Of a DNA stretch of 37,447 bases, positions 3,408-37,447 are shown piece by piece (within the stretch, counting starts at the first letter, position 1; each line of letters starts with the position of its first letter). The notes under the pieces were generated by a model. The model saw only the letters and a list, made by a program, of their open reading frames with translations. It did not search any database and was not told the origin of the DNA. The position numbers were made by a program, and so were the translations under genes. The DNA lies in IMG/VR virus record IMGVR_UViG_3300042261_000078, positions 1 to 37,447 of that record. The stretch is one strand, 5' to 3'. This DNA comes from a virus.

Positions 3408-3532
3408 ATTGCTAGACCTTCTTTGATGTAAAAGTTTGCTTTTTGAGCAGATACATCAACAACATCGCCTTCATTAAGACGGCCATGAACATCGTCAAAC
3501 ACAGGTTTGCGAGTAGTGATGGTAATTTTCAT
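3245..3532 (-). CDS. Small conserved head-operon protein with a basic C-terminal tail
   Basis: The 95-residue protein begins MKITITTRKPVFDDVHGRLNEGD and has a hydrophobic centre (VVDVSAQKANFYIKEGLAMCY), followed by a low-complexity Pro/Ala/Ser linker and the basic end KKKGRKPKQSS. Small proteins with a compact N-terminal domain and a KKK-R-K tail are common after the capsid gene in siphophages; function unknown. It starts at an ATG overlapping the stop of the HNH gene (ATGA) and has no clear ribosome binding site of its own, so translation probably depends on the HNH reading frame. Its 3' half overlaps the DUF115-like gene by 163 bases. Confidence 0.65.
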   Translation of the reverse strand: MKITITTRKPVFDDVHGRLNEGDVVDVSAQKANFYIKEGLAMCYQTKVMQDRPSLGAGVTEPLSALPVAPALPQMTVSESELGAKKKGRKPKQSS

Positions 3533-4209
3533 AGTTGGAAATCCAATTTGTCAGATTTGCGTAAATTATCAGCAGCCCAAAGCGGTTGCAGATTTGTATA
3601 GTGATTCAAGCGTATCACATCTTCTTCAGTTTTCGCTGTAGCAAGCGGAATGATATGGTCAATGTGCCATTCAGAGCGATTTTCCCATGACATGCCTGGT
3701 TGGAATTTAGATTCAAGATAAAATTTCAGTTCTTTAAATGTGCAGCCAATAATATTTTTTGTCAAAATGCTTTTCTTTAGACCAATTCCTTTCATTGCAA
3801 GCCTTGTCCTATGTGACAGCAATGATTTTATTTTATACAAAACATCAGTTTTTCTGCGATAAGCATCACGCAAAACGCTTTTTTCATAATATTTTTTTCT
3901 GTTTATAGACCATTGTTTTTCTTGATTTGCTTTTACTTTGTCTTGGTTATTTTTTGCCCATTCTCTATCTCTTTTTCGTATTGCTTCTATGTTATCAAGC
4001 CTATACTTTCGTTTTTTTTCAAGCAAAATTTCTCTGTTGTCTAAATTATAATTTTTTAGATATTTGCTAATTTTTTCTTTATTTAATTCACGATATGCTT
4101 TATCGCAAATCTTGCATTTTGTCTGTAACCCATCTTTTCTATTTGATGATTTTGCAAAGTAAGATACATCTTTTTCTTCATTGCATTTTTTACAAAGTTT
4201 TGTTTTCAT
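3529..4209 (-). CDS. HNH homing endonuclease inserted in the head operon
   Basis: The 226-residue protein is read from ATG at 4207-4209 (MKTKLCKKCNEEKDVSYF), with AAGGAG seven bases upstream. Zinc-finger-like CKKCNEEKDVSYFAKS..CKICDKAY at the N-terminus is followed by a long Lys/Asn-rich helical middle. The C-terminus has WHIDHIIPLATAKTEEDV and LNHYTNLQPLWAADNLRKSDK, the HNH nuclease core (H-x-D-H-I-x-P and N-L-x-P-L). The coding sequence is markedly richer in A+T than the flanking capsid and portal genes, as expected for a recently acquired mobile endonuclease. It lies just after the capsid terminator and overlaps the next gene by four bases. Confidence 0.85.
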   Translation of the reverse strand: MKTKLCKKCNEEKDVSYFAKSSNRKDGLQTKCKICDKAYRELNKEKISKYLKNYNLDNREILLEKKRKYRLDNIEAIRKRDREWAKNNQDKVKANQEKQWSINRKKYYEKSVLRDAYRRKTDVLYKIKSLLSHRTRLAMKGIGLKKSILTKNIIGCTFKELKFYLESKFQPGMSWENRSEWHIDHIIPLATAKTEEDVIRLNHYTNLQPLWAADNLRKSDKLDFQL

Positions 4210-4252
4210 TGCAATCTCCTTTTGCATATTTTACACGATTTATGCTTGATTG

Positions 4253-7322: not shown

Positions 7323-8849
7323 TTAGACCCCTATTGGATTAGCCAAGAAGTCATTAAACGCAGCCTCATCATCAGTCTCATCGTGACGCGAAGCCAAACC
7401 TAATGCCATAGCCATTGCTACAATTCCATCAATTCTACCTGTTGCTTTGTGTTTGTCTAATTTTCTGTTACCAGCAGTATCTTTTGTAATCATCGCATTA
7501 GCAGCACACATGGTCAAAACAGGATGGTTCCCATGAGCAATTCGCCCATTCAACAATTCTGATTCTAACGCATCAATTGCTGGAGACATATCCTTAAAGC
7601 CCTGACCAAACTCAATTAATGGCAATTCTACGCCTATATTGCTCAATTCTTTGTTCAAAATATCAATTCTCCAACGGTCATACGCAATTTGTTGGATATT
7701 TAGATTGGCAAATATATGTGAAATGTCTTGCGCTATGTATTCATAGTCAACAGTTGCGCCAGGCGTAGTTGCCATATAACCTTGCTTAACCCATACGTCA
7801 TAAGGCTGTCTATCACGCTTTGAACGGTCTGAAAGACCGATTTCTGGTGTCCAGAAGTATGGAACAGTATGCCAAACATCATTTATCTTGCCGCATATAA
7901 CGAGTGCCGTTAAGTCAGTACGCGCAGAAAGATCAAGACCGGCATAAACAGGCGTATTACCAAAGTCGATAACCTTGCCAGCACAAGTTTCCCAAATATT
8001 TCTGCTGATAAATGGAGAAAATGTAGAGACTCGTTGATTTAGGATGAGATTTCTAAATGTGTTCTCTGTTGACGGCATACGAGCAGCTTGTTTAGCTTGT
8101 TCCTCCAGATCAGAGAGAGATCGAAAAATTCCAAGAGCCGGATTTGCCGCCCTCCAGCCTTCCTCGTCAAGTACATCTGCATCCTTTTTCGCTGCGTAGA
8201 TGTGCGAAACGATCTTCGGGTCGTTCGAACGTGCAGCATCGTCAATCCATTGCGAGAAAAGGTCATTATCGTTAGCCGCTTGAGTAGAAATTGCCACTAA
8301 TAAAGGTGCTTTATGAGCGCCTTGGGCAGTTGTAATGGCATCAACAAAGTCATCTTGAGGGCCACGAATCTGCCCAACTTCATCCAAAATAGCCAGAACT
8401 GGTGACAAACCATGTGCTGTTGTGCCGTCAGCAGACAATGCTTTGTACTCAACATTGGCTTTTAGACCAATAATTTTCTTGCCAGACGGCACTAAACGGT
8501 ACAAACCAGCGAATTTAGGCTGTAAATTAAGCATCTTTTCCGCTAAATGGTACACAAGTGCCGCTTGATCTCGTGATCTAGCACCAGAAACGATCTGACT
8601 ATTCAAAACGCGTTCTGGTCCGATGATATGCGCCAATAAAAGCGCAGCAATCAAACCTGATTTACCATTTTTACGGGCAATGCTTAAATAAGCACGACGA
8701 GTGCCTTCTGGATTGTCATAAACGTCAAGAATGAACTTTTTTTGAAAGTCAGCCAACTGCAAAGGCTTTCCAACGTGCTCACCTTCAGGCGTTACGCAAT
8801 ATTCCGTTATAAAACGGATTATCTTTTCGCCGCGAGTTTCATTTTTCAT
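7323..8849 (-). CDS. Terminase large subunit (HK97/P27-associated type)
   Basis: The 508-residue packaging motor has an ATPase P-loop ARKNGKSG at residues 58-65 and Walker B VLAILDEVG around 151-159, with D156 and E157. The nuclease domain starts near 302 with AGLDLSARTDLTAL, where D305 and D311 are candidate metal ligands, and a late LDKHKATGRIDGIVAMAMALG carries another acidic site. The ATG at 8849 lacks a clear ribosome binding site and lies 36 bases after the small-terminase stop, unlike the tightly coupled neighbours. Confidence 0.95.
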   Translation of the reverse strand: MKNETRGEKIIRFITEYCVTPEGEHVGKPLQLADFQKKFILDVYDNPEGTRRAYLSIARKNGKSGLIAALLLAHIIGPERVLNSQIVSGARSRDQAALVYHLAEKMLNLQPKFAGLYRLVPSGKKIIGLKANVEYKALSADGTTAHGLSPVLAILDEVGQIRGPQDDFVDAITTAQGAHKAPLLVAISTQAANDNDLFSQWIDDAARSNDPKIVSHIYAAKKDADVLDEEGWRAANPALGIFRSLSDLEEQAKQAARMPSTENTFRNLILNQRVSTFSPFISRNIWETCAGKVIDFGNTPVYAGLDLSARTDLTALVICGKINDVWHTVPYFWTPEIGLSDRSKRDRQPYDVWVKQGYMATTPGATVDYEYIAQDISHIFANLNIQQIAYDRWRIDILNKELSNIGVELPLIEFGQGFKDMSPAIDALESELLNGRIAHGNHPVLTMCAANAMITKDTAGNRKLDKHKATGRIDGIVAMAMALGLASRHDETDDEAAFNDFLANPIGV

Positions 8850-9347: not shown

Positions 9348-9653
9348 CTATTTATACCAGTGTGAGTTCTTATCTATTGGCTGTCCATCAACATCGCCAC
9401 CAATTTCAATTTCTCGTTTTTCCATCTTTTGCTTTGTCGAGTTGTGATGAGCATAGCATAGCGATTGAAATGGTCCTCTATAAAATTTCACAACATCGCC
9501 TCTGTGCGGAAAAATATGGTCAACCACATTGGCCAACGTAATTTTCCCTTGCTGTTCGCACATTACACAGGTCGGATGCTCTGTTATATGCGCTTTGCGT
9601 ATCTTTTGCCAGCGATAGGTACGATAGAGATGCTGATATTCGTGCTTTGACAT
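9348..9653 (-). CDS. Terminase-associated HNH endonuclease
   Basis: The 101-residue protein contains YRWQKIRKAHITEHPTCVMCEQQGK with a CxxC pair, then NVVDHIFPHRGDVVKFYRG and FQSLCYAHHNSTKQKMEKREI, the complete HNH motif (D-H-I/H-N-S-K) of the small phage HNH proteins encoded beside terminase. In HK97-type phages such proteins stimulate terminase cleavage at cos. The start overlaps the stop of the 44-residue upstream gene as TAATG. Confidence 0.92.
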   Translation of the reverse strand: MSKHEYQHLYRTYRWQKIRKAHITEHPTCVMCEQQGKITLANVVDHIFPHRGDVVKFYRGPFQSLCYAHHNSTKQKMEKREIEIGGDVDGQPIDKNSHWYK

Positions 9654-12244: not shown

Positions 12245-13402
12245 TTAGGCGAACATTTCTGGCGTTACAGTGATGCGACCAACTTCGCCAAATTTTTTGT
12301 GATAAGTGATTGCCTTCATTGTGCGCTCACTCATCCAGCCACCACGCGCAGCATAAGCATCCCTGGCAGCAATCGTTGAGTGCTGAACAACATACATACC
12401 GCTATGCTCTTTTTCGTCGTAATGATGCCGGTGTCCAGTATGACAATACCGTTTTTTAGTCTTGCCCCAAATGTCATGGAACTGGCTGGCAAACATTAGC
12501 GGAAGCGCATCATTCTTCTTCAAATGTCCGTGATGCCAGGCAAGCATTGTGTCGCCATGATGGTAAACATAATAAGGCAATGGTGTGTCAACAACGTCTA
12601 TACGCGGCTCGTTTTCGTACACAGCCTTGAACAACTCACGCAACCAGATAGACGATGATAGATCGTGATTGCCTTCTGCATTAATAAACACAATGCGCTC
12701 ATGCTTTGTTAGGCAATACGCAATTACTCTACGCAAAATGCGTATGGCAACCTGGACAACCTTACTAAACCGATCATCAGCATCTAGCAGGTGTCCGCTA
12801 GTCGGAGTCATTGGCGTAATGCTATCGGCATGAAGAAAGTCGCCAAGCTGTGCAACAACTGCAGTCTGACTACAAGGCGCTGCATTAACCAATTCAATGA
12901 TTGCTGACGTAATCGTTTGTTCAGCAATCTCCAAATCCCAATCAGCACCAGTTTCTTTTCCCCATGCTTTCATACCAACATGGGCATCTGTAATCGTGTA
13001 AACAGTAGCCAAATCTGCGCTGGTCGTTGCATTAAACGCTACAGGCGCATACTTCGGCAAATCTTCTTTTAGCGCTTCAATAGCAGCCAGCATTGCCTCA
13101 TGCTGCACTTCTTTGTTTACATCAGTTTTGATCCACTGCAGCTTTGACTCGCCTGTTGTCTTATCAACAAGCGTTGATGTGCCTTTAACATTAAAACCAA
13201 CGGGTACTTGATAGTCCAAATCAGCATCAGGTGCAATACCAGCCATTGCAGCCCTGGCTTTCACCAACTGTAGTCGCTTGAATACGTTTCGCTCTGTAAT
13301 GCCAAGTCGTGCTGCAATATCACGCTTTGTAATACCTCTGATAGACAACTCAACAATCTTACGTTGCTGCTCTGACAGACAGAAATCAAGAAGATGATCC
13401 AT
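12245..13402 (-). CDS. Helix-turn-helix plus calcineurin-like metallophosphoesterase fusion
   Basis: The 385-residue protein has an N-terminal helix-turn-helix (about residues 10-50, ITKRDIAARLGITERNVFKR, resembling LuxR/sigma-type HTH). A linker follows, then a metallophosphoesterase with all the usual metal motifs: ITDAHVG (D139, H141), LGDFLH (D188), GNHD (244-247), HHGH (290-293) and HTGHRHH (321-327). Such enzymes hydrolyse phosphodiesters or phosphomonoesters with two metal ions; the substrate here is unknown. The ribosome binding site AAGGG lies inside the nearest of three palindromes (13406-13462), so the protein may repress its own gene. It is the last gene of the minus-strand replication block. 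Confidence 0.85.
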   Translation of the reverse strand: MDHLLDFCLSEQQRKIVELSIRGITKRDIAARLGITERNVFKRLQLVKARAAMAGIAPDADLDYQVPVGFNVKGTSTLVDKTTGESKLQWIKTDVNKEVQHEAMLAAIEALKEDLPKYAPVAFNATTSADLATVYTITDAHVGMKAWGKETGADWDLEIAEQTITSAIIELVNAAPCSQTAVVAQLGDFLHADSITPMTPTSGHLLDADDRFSKVVQVAIRILRRVIAYCLTKHERIVFINAEGNHDLSSSIWLRELFKAVYENEPRIDVVDTPLPYYVYHHGDTMLAWHHGHLKKNDALPLMFASQFHDIWGKTKKRYCHTGHRHHYDEKEHSGMYVVQHSTIAARDAYAARGGWMSERTMKAITYHKKFGEVGRITVTPEMFA

Positions 13403-17784: not shown

Positions 17785-18407
17785 CACTACATTTAGGTGC
17801 TGACTACCACGATCAACGAACGGATGAATGGCATGAAGCGCGTCTTGGTCGTATTACTGCTTCTCGTATTTATGATGTTATTTCTAAAACGTCAAAGGGA
17901 ACATACACTGCAAAAAGAGATGACTATGCCTTCCAGCTTGCAGCCGAACGACTTACCGGACTGCCTACAAAGTCATACACCAACGATGCAATGCTTCACG
18001 GAATAGAAGTCGAACCAATGGCTCTAGAGTTCTATGCTGAATTCTATGGGCATGACATAACATCTGCTCCATTTATTATTCACAGGAATATGTCTTTTTG
18101 TGGCGCAAGTCCAGATGGAATTGTGAACAATAAATGGCTCGTTGAGATTAAGGCCCCACAAACGAACACATTTCTTCGTATCAAACATGAAAACACACCT
18201 CCAGCGCAATACGTTGCGCAATGTCAGTTTCAGATGGCAGTAACTGGTGCTGATAAAGTAGATTTGTTTTTTTATGACAATAGGATCATTGATCCAACAA
18301 AGCAATTTATGTTGTTCAAAATTAAACGCGACAACGAAATGATTGCAAACATCGAAAATGAAGTTGTTATGTTTAATGATTACGTTGAATCTATAGTGAA
18401 TGAGTGA
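17781..18407 (+). CDS. YqaJ/lambda-exonuclease-like 5'-3' exonuclease
   Basis: The 208-residue protein is read from the ATG overlapping the previous stop ([21 protein letters not shown]); an in-frame ATG 15 bases upstream is possible. [43 protein letters not shown] (D112, E122, K124) and [15 protein letters not shown] are the ordered motifs of the lambda Exo/YqaJ nuclease fold, including the catalytic D-E-K triad. It resects DNA ends for the ERF annealase two genes upstream. Confidence 0.9.
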
Positions 18408-18537
18408 TATGATTGTTTTATCGCTTGGCAGCGTTAATCCAGTAAGCCCTGGTAGCTACTCTGTACGGTACTGGCCGTATCTGCCAACGTCCGAAAGGAT
18501 GAGAGTAGCTTCTAGGGCTTTTGTATTAGGAATCAAT

Positions 18538-19002
18538 ATGGCTCCGAAACCTAAAGAAATGTCAGAACACATGGCAAATTTCACAGTATCAGATACAGGA
18601 TGCTGGAACTTTAATGGAAGTAAAGATAGAGATGGATATGGCGTATTTGGAAGATTTGGAAAACAGATCAGAGCGCATAGAGCATCATATGAATTTCACA
18701 TTGGCAAAATAGAAAGCGGAATGATTGTTTGCCATAGATGCGACAATCCATCTTGCATAAATCCAGATCATTTATTTTCTGGAACTTGCAAAGATAACTC
18801 TCAAGATATGGCATCAAAGAATCGTAGCAGAGATCAACATGGATCAAAGCACAACATGGCAAAACTTGACGAACAAGATGTTTCAATTATTCGTCAAATG
18901 AGAAGTTTAGGGGCGACTCTAGAATTCATTGCAAAGCAGTTTGGAATTTCTTTTCAACACGCAGGAAGCATCTGCAATCGTGTCACATGGACACATATTT
19001 AA
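18538..19002 (+). CDS. HNH endonuclease with C-terminal helix-turn-helix
   Basis: From the ATG at 18538 (AGGA six bases upstream) the 154-residue protein contains [55 protein letters not shown] and [18 protein letters not shown], the complete HNH_3-type core. A C-terminal helix-turn-helix ([25 protein letters not shown]) probably gives target recognition. The frame stays open upstream to an ATG at 18400, overlapping the exonuclease stop, and would add 46 residues that do not look like HNH sequence. Probably a mobile endonuclease inserted between exonuclease and DUF736 genes. Confidence 0.85.
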
Positions 19003-20195: not shown

Positions 20196-20232
20196 TTGAC
20201 ACAGCTAAAACTTGCTTATAGAATGTTTACAT
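20196..20232 (+). promoter_or_regulatory. Early promoter P3
   Basis: TTGACA (20196-20201), a 17-base spacer and TAGAAT (20219-20224) form a near-consensus promoter, followed directly by GTTTACAT (20225-20232), the same element seen after P1 and P2. It gives the second half of the plus-strand operon, including the RNA array at 20720, its own transcription start. Confidence 0.8.
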
Positions 20233-20578: not shown

Positions 20579-20713
20579 ATGAAAAAGACTATTTCAATCA
20601 TCGCTGCTCTAATGGCTGTTGCTTCTATCGCTCAAGCAGCCTGTCCAGCATACGCACCATATCGTTGTGTGCCTGGCTATAACGGCAAAATGATCTGCGG
20701 CTGCGGTATGTAA
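20579..20713 (+). CDS. Secreted, cysteine-rich 44-residue peptide
   Basis: A clear signal peptide, KKTISIIAALMAVASIAQA, ends in AQA|A for signal peptidase I. The predicted mature peptide is about 24 residues (ACPAYAPYRC and VPGYNGKMICGCGM) with four cysteines, suited to two disulfides in the periplasm or outside the cell. AGGAG precedes the ATG. Such peptides are unusual in a recombination operon. It is followed at once by the RNA array. A role in superinfection exclusion or lysis timing is possible but unproven. Confidence 0.7.
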   Translation: MKKTISIIAALMAVASIAQAACPAYAPYRCVPGYNGKMICGCGM

Positions 20714-20719
20714 GTTTAC

Positions 20720-20789
20720 GGGGCAAAAGCGGATGTTGAATGAACGGATTGAATAAGTCCTGAGTTCAAACGCAGCGAGTAGCCCCACC
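20720..20789 (+). ncRNA. tRNA-like RNA array, unit 1
   Basis: GGGGCAA (20720-20726) pairs with TAGCCCC (20780-20786) in a 7-position closing stem with one mismatch, followed by ACC. Inside, GGATT/AAGTCC can form a short hairpin, and GCG..GTTGAA can pair with TTCAAACGC. It lies just after the stop of the secreted peptide gene. No canonical tRNA arms are complete. Confidence 0.6.
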
Positions 20790-20797
20790 TTTTCTAC

Positions 20798-20881
20798 GGG
20801 ACGGTTCTCAGACTAACGCAGTAACAACCTTATGAAAGGCGTTATCTGTTTTTGGCTGGTGAATCAACAGCCGTCCCACCA
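20798..20881 (+). ncRNA. tRNA-like RNA array, unit 2
   Basis: A perfect 7-bp stem, GGGACGG (20798-20804) with CCGTCCC (20871-20877), is followed by ACCA, exactly the layout of a tRNA acceptor stem, discriminator base and CCA. Inside, CAGACTAACGC pairs with GCGTTATCTG (10 bp, one bulge), and GGCTG can pair with CAGCC in place of the T arm. At 84 bases it is tRNA-sized, but a normal D arm and T loop are missing. Confidence 0.7.
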
Positions 20882-20888
20882 TTTCAAC

Positions 20889-20950
20889 GGGCTGGTATTT
20901 TCAATCACTATGTATTTGATGATTTGGGAATTTGTATAGCCAGCCCACCA
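20889..20950 (+). ncRNA. tRNA-like RNA array, unit 3
   Basis: GGGCTGG (20889-20895) pairs perfectly with CCAGCCC (20940-20946), followed by ACCA. Compared with unit 2, two stem positions change on both strands (AC to CT, and GT to AG), which is compensatory. The 44-base interior is short and A+T-rich, with only a weak ATCA/TGAT hairpin. Confidence 0.7.
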
Positions 20951-20957
20951 TCTCAAT

Positions 20958-21029
20958 GGGCGCGTACTTCTAGTTTGATTTTTTCATAAGGAGGTAATCG
21001 TGCAGCGGGAAACTTCACGAGCGCCCACC
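20958..21029 (+). ncRNA. tRNA-like RNA array, unit 4, enclosing a ribosome binding site
   Basis: GGGCGC (20958-20963) pairs with GCGCCC (21021-21026), followed by ACC. The unit contains AAGGAGGT (20988-20995) and the GTG at 21000. TCGTG (20998-21002) can pair with CACGA (21016-21020), placing that start codon in a stem just before the 3' arm. Folding could therefore control translation of the downstream gene. Confidence 0.6.
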
Positions 21030-21062
21030 CTACATCAGCACATTAACAACAGGAGAGTTATC

Positions 21063-21401
21063 GTGCAGTTACAAGAAGTTTTGTTTGGCACATTTGTACC
21101 ACCAGAAGGCGCGAAATCTAGAGTGCATCGTATCGGTTTTTCATCTAAATTTGGCTATAAACCGCCTCCAGTTAGAGTATATAAACGTGCAGAAATGCTT
21201 GATTCGCACAAAAAGATTATTGCAGTTCTAAAGAAGCTAGGAAAACCATCAACACCTGCAGAAGTATCGGTAAAAACAATTTGGACACGGAATCGCTGCA
21301 GCATTTTGCTGTGCGAGATGTTCAAAAGCGGCAAGCTAAAGCGGACAAAGATTATCGTAGGAAATTCCAGAACCTATTTATATAGCATTGTGAGTGAATA
21401 A
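21063..21401 (+). CDS. Winged-helix-like protein downstream of the RNA array
   Basis: From GTG at 21063 (AGGAGA six bases upstream) the protein has 112 residues. The frame is also open from GTG at 21000, which has an ideal AAGGAGGT; that start would add 21 residues but lies inside RNA unit 4. The C-terminal half, DSHKKIIAVLKKLGKPSTPAEVSVKTIWTRN and ILLCEMFKSGKLKRTKI with SRTYLYSI, looks like a winged helix-turn-helix. The N-terminal part resembles no family I know. It could be a DNA or RNA binding regulator. It is followed by the DUF3310 gene with stop and start touching (TAATG). Confidence 0.7.
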   Translation: MQLQEVLFGTFVPPEGAKSRVHRIGFSSKFGYKPPPVRVYKRAEMLDSHKKIIAVLKKLGKPSTPAEVSVKTIWTRNRCSILLCEMFKSGKLKRTKIIVGNSRTYLYSIVSE

Positions 21402-21646
21402 TGCACGATCCAGTAAACCAACCAAGTCATTACACAAGCAATAAAGCAAGCTGCAAAATTTGCGATGAAAAAATTGAGTGTATTGACATAACAAAACATA
21501 TGAATTTTTGTCTTGGAAATGCAATTAAATACATATGGAGAGCAGGTCTAAAAAATGATACTATAGAGGACTTACAGAAAGCTATAGTTTACATTCAATA
21601 TGAAATTGAAAAGATCGAGCAAGCACAGGCATCACATAATCCCTAA
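21401..21646 (+). CDS. DUF3310 (phage 'nucleotide kinase') family protein
   Basis: The 81-residue protein has VNQPSHYTSN at the start and IECIDITKHMNFCLGNAIKYIWRAGLK, followed by DLQKAIVYIQYEIEKIE, the DUF3310 signature. The family is often called nucleotide kinase by homology to T7 gp1.7, though it lacks a P-loop. A small CKICDEK insertion with a CxxC pair is unusual. Its 3' end overlaps the next HNH gene by 47 bases. Confidence 0.85.
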   Translation: MHDPVNQPSHYTSNKASCKICDEKIECIDITKHMNFCLGNAIKYIWRAGLKNDTIEDLQKAIVYIQYEIEKIEQAQASHNP

Positions 21647-22178
21647 ACATATGGGCGGTACTGATGATGAAGAAAATCTAACACCGCCTATATCAATTGA
21701 ACTTCATGCTGAATTTCATAAAGATTTGTGGATTCATTACAAAGATAAACGAGATTATATTGCTTGGAAATGTTTATCTGGTCGAATGACAGGCGAAGAA
21801 GCAAGAATTAAAGCTGCAAAAATAGGTCAAAGCATGTCAGTTAAATATAAAGAATCAAGAAAGATTACTGGTGAATTTGTTAAAAATTGTAGAACATATG
21901 AAAGCTGTTCAAAAGGCGGGAAAATTGCATCAAAAAAACTTGTTGAATGGCAATTAAAGAACAAAGAATTATTTGCTAAACAATGCGCTGAAAATGCAAA
22001 AAAAGGTAATAAATATAAATTTATACAGCATTTATATAAAGGAATTATTTATAACAGCAAAAAAGAATTGCAAATTGAACACAAAATGAGCAATTGCGGA
22101 TTTTATGGAAAATTAAAACGCGGTGAAATAATTAGAATTGGGAAAATTCATGTCAAGCAAAAACGAAATAACTGGTGA
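21600..22178 (+). CDS. HNH-type homing endonuclease, A+T-rich
   Basis: The 192-residue protein starts at an ATG inside the DUF3310 gene (MKLKRSSKHRHHIIPKHMGG). HRHHIIPKHMGGTDDEENLTPPISIELHAEFHKDLW is the HNH core found in free-standing phage endonucleases. Residues about 60-150 are Lys/Glu-rich, and CSKGGKIASKK resembles the NUMOD-like DNA-binding repeats of such enzymes. The end (KGIIYNSKKELQIEHKMSNCGFYGKLKRG) may be another DNA-binding module. Codon choice is far more A+T-rich than in DUF3310, so it is a likely recent insertion. Confidence 0.82.
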   Translation: MKLKRSSKHRHHIIPKHMGGTDDEENLTPPISIELHAEFHKDLWIHYKDKRDYIAWKCLSGRMTGEEARIKAAKIGQSMSVKYKESRKITGEFVKNCRTYESCSKGGKIASKKLVEWQLKNKELFAKQCAENAKKGNKYKFIQHLYKGIIYNSKKELQIEHKMSNCGFYGKLKRGEIIRIGKIHVKQKRNNW

Positions 22179-36243: not shown

Positions 36244-36756
36244 TTACATTGACAAGCTAGTATCAGTATTACTATCAAGTCCATATTTTCGCACAAGTTT
36301 TTGAATACGACTTGTTAAATCATCGCGTATGACATTGATTGCTTTTTCAGCAGTAGCCATAAATGCTGTACGAATAAATGAACGCGCTGGCTGATGTTCA
36401 GAGCCATACTCAAAGATTTGAGCAGTTTTAATGGTGGATACTTTTTCTTTTTGGTTTGCCTTGCTTGGATACATACGGCGCTTGACGCGAACGACATATC
36501 TTTCGCCACGACTATTTGCTGGCTTTTTACCACGGCTAGCAATGATGTTTTTGATTAGCAAACCAGTTGTATCATTGTTGCCTTGCTCATTAAGCATGGC
36601 TTGCAATCGTTCAACTTCAGCGTCACGAATCAGTTTTGCACCTTTTTTAAGCGCTAATTTAACTGGACCACCTCGTTTAGACACAACATTTTCTGGCAAG
36701 CGGTTAAGCGTATCCATTAGTTCATCTAACCCGCTGAAGTTTAATGTTGTTTTCAT
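36244..36756 (-). CDS. HK97 gp10-like neck/tail protein, complete copy
   Basis: The 170-residue protein begins MKTTLNFSGLDELMDTLNRLPENVVSKRGGPVKLALKKGAKLIRDAEVERL, the HK97_gp10 family pattern, and carries basic RYVVRVKRRMYPSKANQKEK and PARSFIRTAFMATAEKAINVIRDDL near the end. It works in tail completion or joining. The ATG overlaps the methyltransferase stop as ATGA. The left window edge shows a diverged copy of its first 42 codons. Confidence 0.88.
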   Translation of the reverse strand: MKTTLNFSGLDELMDTLNRLPENVVSKRGGPVKLALKKGAKLIRDAEVERLQAMLNEQGNNDTTGLLIKNIIASRGKKPANSRGERYVVRVKRRMYPSKANQKEKVSTIKTAQIFEYGSEHQPARSFIRTAFMATAEKAINVIRDDLTSRIQKLVRKYGLDSNTDTSLSM

Positions 36757-37373
36757 TCTATGCGCCTAAATACATAGGTTGAAATTGCTTCGCGACCAAG
36801 TTCAGTTTCCATGTTATTTTTCTCAACAAGTACAAAACCGAGTTCGCTAAACCACTTTGTTAAGCCAAAATCAGACCAGTACCAAATATGTTCGCCTGGT
36901 CGATAATGTTTGCTTTTCGTTATGGTATTCGGATTCTCAAAGATAGGCAATGAAACAAAAACATATTGCCTTACCTTGTTAATAAGAGTTTCAGGAGATG
37001 GAATATGCTCAAGGCTATCCCAGCAAGAAATAGCATCAACATCACCGGCATAAGGATCGCAAAAGCGATCAGTCTCCATAAGCCAATTGACAGCGTTTTG
37101 ATTAACATCAAATCCAAAACCTTTAGCGCCCATAGCAGTAACAAACTTGCCGCCGCCAATACCAATATCAATGATTGAGCCATTATAGTAAAAATCAACA
37201 AGTTCTTTCCTTGCATCAGTCAGGGCATCGCCAAGTGCCGTATCATCGTAGCAAAGGTATTTTTCCCAATAATCATGCTCGTAGCAAATAGGTTCTCGCG
37301 GGTGAAAACCCATCCCCTTTTCAGGACACCAAATCAGGGAATCTTCCCAACCATTCGGTAAACTTTTTTGCAT
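36753..37373 (-). CDS. SAM-dependent methyltransferase (class I fold), copy 2
   Basis: The 206-residue protein is 90% identical to the copy at 125-745 and keeps IIDIGIGGGKF, GFDVN and CWDSLEHIP. Differences cluster outside these motifs (for example CYDDTA for GYDNTE, and FGLTKWFSELGF for LGLSKWFRQLGF), which suggests that both versions are functional variants. ATG at 37371-37373 follows the same AAGGA. The upstream glycosyltransferase frame overlaps its start, as in copy 1. Confidence 0.78.
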   Translation of the reverse strand: MQKSLPNGWEDSLIWCPEKGMGFHPREPICYEHDYWEKYLCYDDTALGDALTDARKELVDFYYNGSIIDIGIGGGKFVTAMGAKGFGFDVNQNAVNWLMETDRFCDPYAGDVDAISCWDSLEHIPSPETLINKVRQYVFVSLPIFENPNTITKSKHYRPGEHIWYWSDFGLTKWFSELGFVLVEKNNMETELGREAISTYVFRRIE

Positions 37374-37447
37374 GATCCTTGATTTCCTTTTTGCAATTAT
37401 GTTGGCCGTCAGAACAACGACAGAAATTATCCGGTATAGCATAACCC
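37321..37447 (-). CDS. Glycosyltransferase family 9-like protein, C-terminal fragment at the window edge
   Basis: The minus-strand frame GYAIPDNFCRCSDGQHNC, followed by KKEIKDHAKKFTEWLGRFPD and LVS, enters from the right edge and stops at 37321-37323. It matches the end of the gene at 693-1568, with S for R, R for G and D for N changes. The gene is cut by the window and is probably the same locus seen at the left end. Confidence 0.8.
   Translation of the reverse strand, partial: GYAIPDNFCRCSDGQHNCKKEIKDHAKKFTEWLGRFPDLVS

Follow-up and report, generated by a model that had tools for sequence, protein, structure and literature searches.

A conserved tandem array of ACC-ending hairpins in phage early operons: candidate RNase P-processed small RNAs

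The C4 RNA of phages P1 and P7 is an antisense RNA that pairs close to a translation start, and the CI RNA of phage P4 is an immunity RNA of about 80 nt that is processed by RNase P. In the P1 C4 RNA the RNase P cleavage site is the 5' end of the P1 stem (PMC5320573), and phage RNAs including C4 and M3 are also RNase P substrates, the 3' RCC of such substrates pairing with a GGU in the RNase P RNA (PMC12710915, PMC11143913). A different early RNA, put, is used by phage HK022 (PMC9378689). The locus examined here lies in the IMG/VR virus record IMGVR_UViG_3300042261_000078, positions 1-37,447 of which (37,447 nt, 43% GC) were analyzed and are called the window. It comprises four hairpin units, and a GG-starting stem closed by CC and followed by ACC is present in all four, in two units of a second phage, and in the P1 C4 RNA.

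The array is a conserved, real phage RNA element. Structured RNAs conserved between phages that have no detectable proteins in common are uncommon, and their conservation usually points to a function useful in many hosts. The following sections describe the array and its homologue and weigh the functions that it may serve.

Layout and setting of the array

The structural genes of the window are of the HK97/HK022 type, with a terminase 62.7% identical to the HK022 terminase, and the array is located in a rightward early operon that also encodes Erf, YqaJ-exonuclease, HNH, RuvC-like and DUF3310 proteins. The gene immediately upstream (20579-20713, + strand) specifies a 44-aa peptide with a signal-peptide-like start on sequence inspection, and its stop codon lies 6 nt ahead of unit 1. 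The downstream open reading frame (21000-21401, + strand), for which no family match was found, begins at GTG 21000 within unit 4 or at an in-frame GTG at 21063. Between 20565 and 21000 neither strand contains an open reading frame of at least 60 aa. A possible sigma-70 promoter at 20196-20224 (+ strand; TTGACA-17-TAGAAT) is a consensus match only, and promoter-like sites around it are no commoner than in shuffled sequence.

The four units follow one another head to tail on the + strand at 20720-20786, 20798-20877, 20889-20946 and 20958-21026, and their stems and folds confirm the preliminary description of a four-unit tandem array with perfect closing stems of 6-7 bp in units 2-4 and a mismatch in unit 1. 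Unit 1 is closed by GGGGC/GCCCC, a 5-bp stem followed by an A.A mismatch and one A-U pair, and contains a conserved internal loop (AAAA-GC-GGAU opposite CGCA-GC-GAGUA) below a variable apical hairpin. The closing stems of the remaining units are GGGACGG/CCGTCCC (unit 2, 7 bp, then ACCA), GGGCTGG/CCAGCCC (unit 3, 7 bp, then ACCA) and GGGCGC/GCGCCC (unit 4, 6 bp, then ACCC). Units 2 and 3 have different bases at positions 4 and 5 of the stem, with the opposite arm changed to match, in agreement with the compensatory changes reported earlier. The base that follows ACC is U, A, A and C in units 1 to 4, respectively, so that the common 3' extension is ACC and not ACCA; of the tRNA-like 3' end originally proposed (stem plus A plus CC(A)), ACC is retained in every unit and the terminal A is not.

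Linkers 1, 2 and 3 (+ strand) are ACCTTTTCTAC (20787-20797), ACCATTTCAAC (20878-20888) and ACCATCTCAAT (20947-20957). Each stem is separated from the one that follows by exactly 11 nt at all three junctions, and the similar short linkers noted before are present throughout. Each unit folds more stably than its dinucleotide shuffles (z of -3.83, -2.94, -2.87 and -2.91 for units 1 to 4), as does the whole array (z -3.05), whose minimum-energy structure consists of four separate units. With GGG/CCC kept fixed and the interiors shuffled, the probability of the closing stems arising by chance is 0.056 x 0.0044 x 0.0046 x 0.016, or about 1.8e-8. On inspection, the adjacent arms of neighbouring units can pair through CCC/GGG or one further base pair at most, which indicates that pairing occurs within units.

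Other features of the record were also observed. The record ends (1-818 and about 36629-37446) are 86% identical over 818 nt, each with a Methyltransf_23 gene (125-814 and 36753-37442), and are explained either by a tandem duplication interrupted where a circular genome was opened or by the joining of two strain variants. HNH/homing-endonuclease-like genes are present at 3529-4227, 9348-9653, 18400-19002 and 21600-22178, several for one small phage; the calls at 3529, 18400 and 21600 are Pfam/PHROGs matches and that at 9348 is by sequence judgement only. A 385-aa protein encoded at 12245-13402 has an N-terminal match to sigma-70 region 4/HTH-like sequences, and its remainder appears metallophosphatase-like by eye.

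The homologous array and the conserved anatomy

A scan with the pattern CCCACCWTTTCWACGGG identified one homologue, in IMGVR_UViG_3300025291_000003 (L192; 46,062 nt, 62% GC), a temperate phage with an integrase and a repressor. Around the matched 17-mer this genome reads (T)CAAC-GGGGGAAAGCGGAT...CGCAGCGAGTA-CCCC-ACCTTTTCAAC-GGGCGGAC...GTCTGCCC-ACCCTACAT, an array of two units in which the counterpart of unit 1 occupies 2194-2256. The first-unit core AAAGCGGAU...CGCAGCGAGUA is common to both phages, and the blocks AAAGCGGAT and CGCAGCGAGTA, which played no part in the search pattern, occur in the same order and place in both first units (chance about 2e-8). Linker 1 and the L192 linker are identical at 10 of 11 positions. 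Both arrays end in the boundary GCCCACCCUACAU, and the 13-mer GCCCACCCTACAT (21023-21035, + strand, in the window) closes the last unit of each with 13/13 identity. The second L192 unit has its own 8-bp closing stem, including one G-U pair and again of different sequence. The base after ACC is U and C in the two L192 units, and the stem followed by A-C-C is thus found in 6/6 units with a variable fourth base.

The two phages have no proteins in common at an E-value of 1e-5. Both arrays begin 5-6 nt after an upstream stop codon and are part of early operons that include recombination genes; that of L192 lies 5 nt past a stop codon behind exonuclease-family genes. The agreement in core, linker, boundary and place argues for a conserved RNA in which the number of units is variable. 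Two natural copies were found in all, by exact-pattern scans of the collections. A tRNA-Pro gene is present at 9620-9696 of L192, near the contig end and about 2.2 kb past the integrase, and is possibly the attachment site of this prophage.

From these two copies the first unit can be described as a P1 stem (GGGG/CCCC), [G/A]AAA opposite GAGUA, a GC/GC pair, GGAU opposite CGCA, and a variable hairpin; the [G/A]AAA and GAGUA strands may form a loop-E/bulged-G motif. The consensus linker ACCUUUUC[A/U]AC is followed by one (L192) or three (window) more units, the last of which is followed by ACCCUACAU.

Searches for further relatives used several routes. No near relatives were recovered from viral_contigs through the downstream gene, RuvC-like, YqaJ or primase proteins, and the array was absent from the 80 DUF3310 loci and 50 terminase relatives examined. 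The 20 matches to the first linker pattern, CCCACCAYYTCAAYGGG, were all attributable to chance. BLAST of phages, plasmids and E. coli genomes returned nothing convincing, and the matches obtained in phage 434, a Vibrio phage and E. coli proved on checking to be chance. Among GTDB genomes, 798 of them selected by pattern and 1072 by the two-sequence model R1 (with some overlap between the groups), no credible array was seen, and the only matches, L195, L197, L200 and L203, looked like coding-sequence or chance matches; model R1, with slightly misregistered base pairs, acts mainly as a sequence model, and these empty genome searches show little because no positive-control genome was among those searched.

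Candidate functions of the array

Taken together, the RCC signature, the precedent of C4 and a comparable hairpin in P4 favour an array of tandem RNase P-processed small RNAs that would be C4-like in processing and not in sequence, a reading to which we assign about an even chance of being correct. The P4 hairpin is a 75-nt element at 8341-8415 (read 8415-8341) of the form GTGAG...CTCAC-ACC-CTG, at what we take to be the position of the CI RNA, which is not annotated in the record. In the proposed scheme the host RNase P would recognize each hairpin module and cut 5' of its GGG, breaking the early transcript into several structured small RNAs of 58-80 nt and also parting the array from the flanking mRNAs. 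Each module carries the elements of a minimal RNase P signal, namely a pyrimidine left unpaired at -1, a closing stem with a G1-C72 pair, and a 3' A-C-C able to pair with GGU in RNase P RNA. RNase P had been listed earlier as a possible partner, and the stem-A-C-C of all six units, which corresponds to the RCC signal, is consistent with that suggestion. Because the fourth base lies outside the RCC-GGU pairing, its variability fits this scheme and counts against mimicry of a CCA-type tRNA end. The modules are paralogous, and the repetition of ACC within the window is therefore not independent; the independent support comes from one other phage. On this scheme RNase P would cleave the array and set free small RNAs with a regulatory function of the antisense or immunity type. 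The first module, with its extra conserved internal-loop core, would probably be the one that engages a specific partner, and the others would vary in number and sequence, as in the phage immunity RNAs C4 (P1/P7) and CI (P4).

Antisense pairing was evaluated by duplex energy against dinucleotide shuffles, and the C4 RNA of P1 with its target served as a positive control (p 0.016). Eleven of 13 positions match between the apical loop of unit 1 and the start of the upstream gene. For the starts of neighbouring genes the best values were p 0.015 and 0.03 among 16 tests, which are not significant after correction for that number, and the same test in L192 gave no antisense pairing.

The conserved core of unit 1 exceeds what RNase P requires. 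A more specific and tentative proposal, which we hold to be somewhat less probable than its opposite, is that the array represents a new, horizontally shared RNA family in which a loop-E-like first domain is joined to variable RNase P-processed modules by a fixed 11-nt linker, forming an expandable cassette of trans-acting small RNAs with a possible immunity or counter-defence role.

Another reading, with which the unit 1 core as the most conserved part of the array is in keeping, is a cis-acting leader or switch, in which unit 1 would be a sensing domain (its conserved internal loop lying between P1 and the variable hairpin) and the later hairpins would relay its state to the downstream gene through sequestration of the Shine-Dalgarno sequence in unit 4. 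Unit 4 overlaps a good Shine-Dalgarno sequence (AAGGAGG) and GTG 21000 of the downstream reading frame, and in its predicted fold the Shine-Dalgarno sequence is paired (UACUUCU with AGGAGGUA). The apical loop of unit 2 (20828-20837) is in addition a perfect 10-bp complement of this Shine-Dalgarno region (20982-20991), but it was noted post hoc (the probability of any match of this kind being about 0.007), and by duplex energy the pairing of unit 2 with the translation start at 21000 does not reach significance (p 0.2). The AAAG strand of unit 1 can pair with CUUUU of the linker in both phages as an alternative to the P1 stem, although in the window this pairing is weak (-12.7 vs -24.1 kcal/mol). 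We regard a leader as rather unlikely, since L192 has no + strand gene directly after the array and no Shine-Dalgarno sequence was seen in its last unit; the next gene there is convergent, so the array in that phage does not serve simply as a leader for a gene that follows. The start region in the window is nearly duplicated (20994-21005, GTAATCGTGCAG; 21057-21068, GTTATCGTGCAG), so that two in-frame GTG codons, 63 nt apart and each behind a good Shine-Dalgarno site, are available as starts, the first of them within unit 4.

Several explanations draw on the likeness to tRNA or on position in the transcript. ARAGORN detected no tRNA or tmRNA genes, and a cloverleaf with D, anticodon and T arms is lacking, as is a constant 3' CCA; the sole T-loop-like string, TTCAAAC in unit 1, is missing from unit 1 of L192. 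A trans-acting or decoy RNA that mimics a tRNA acceptor and binds the host CCA enzyme, a tRNA nuclease or a tRNA-dependent defence would account for the acceptor-like stems of 5-7 bp with A73-C74-C75 in 6/6 units, and a tandem series would suit a sponge. The unconserved terminal A, the absent T arm and a conserved internal core foreign to tRNA speak against it, however, so that CCA/tRNA mimicry as such, raised in the preliminary description, is disfavoured and an RNA of this sort is unlikely. The array might instead be a cluster of decayed phage tRNAs that is functionless today, given its tandem acceptor-like ends and the frequency of tRNA clusters in viruses. This explanation, also offered earlier, now seems highly improbable: stems are maintained through compensatory change, the linkers and first unit are conserved in an unrelated phage, and a tRNA body is found in none of the units. 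It is also improbable, somewhat less so, that the array acts in transcription, for example as a put-like antiterminator, or stabilizes the 3' end of the upstream mRNA. In both phages a stop codon is immediately followed by strong hairpins, which, like the HK97/HK022 type of the structural genes, is in keeping with such a role. Against this, put lies just downstream of promoters and the array far inside the operon, the core motifs are missing from the HK022 early region save for one chance 8-mer, there is no terminator-like U-run, and either role would leave the conserved linkers and the ACC signature unexplained.

Other repeat classes were considered and rejected. A CRISPR array or solitary repeat does not agree with repeats that are merely 69-78% alike, spaced at 91 and 69 nt, and paired within units rather than within the repeat. 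On grounds of layout, integron attC sites and the repeats of type III toxin-antitoxin systems appear not to fit either.

Comparison with described phage RNAs

Covariance-model searches of Rfam 15, of the kind suggested in the preliminary description, gave no match to the window at gathering score, and weak-threshold searches of 20600-21100 and of the L192 array produced chance-level matches only. The C4 covariance model had no match in the window or L192 up to an E-value of 10, whereas P1 scores 68.8 bits; the array therefore falls outside the C4 family. No curated family was matched, in line with the earlier view, and the claim that no described family has this layout needs qualification, as the C4 RNA of P1 (RF01695) shares the stem-ACC-U end and the P4 hairpin has a similar one.

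Among the systems compared, HK022 put is likewise a structured phage early RNA, but it consists of two stem-loops in about 70 nt, and no common sequence or layout was found. Polycistronic tRNA transcripts and phage tRNA clusters resemble the array in their tandem units, acceptor-like stems, C-C after the discriminator and short linkers; the array differs in having no tRNA fold, an unconserved terminal A and an additional conserved internal loop. The CI RNA of P4 occurs in one copy and pairs with duplicated target sequences, in contrast to the tandem units seen here. The C4 RNA (about 77-87 nt) is similarly a phage RNA of an early or immunity operon, with a closing GC stem, A-C-C and then a non-A base; in P1 it reads AAUUAU followed by GGUGGGG...CCUGCC-ACC-UGU, and RNase P has been shown to cleave it 5' of the GG (PMC5320573). 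C4 consists of one unit, in which a long stem is combined with two defined hairpins bearing a'/b' target loops, whereas the array has 2-4 units, conserved 11-nt linkers and a different first-unit core. If RNase P does free the modules, phages would have a modular way of obtaining several small RNAs from one early transcript, and YAAC-GGG...CCC-ACC with an 11-nt linker would provide a search motif for other phages. The array would then extend the single-copy immunity RNAs of the C4 and CI type to tandem arrays.
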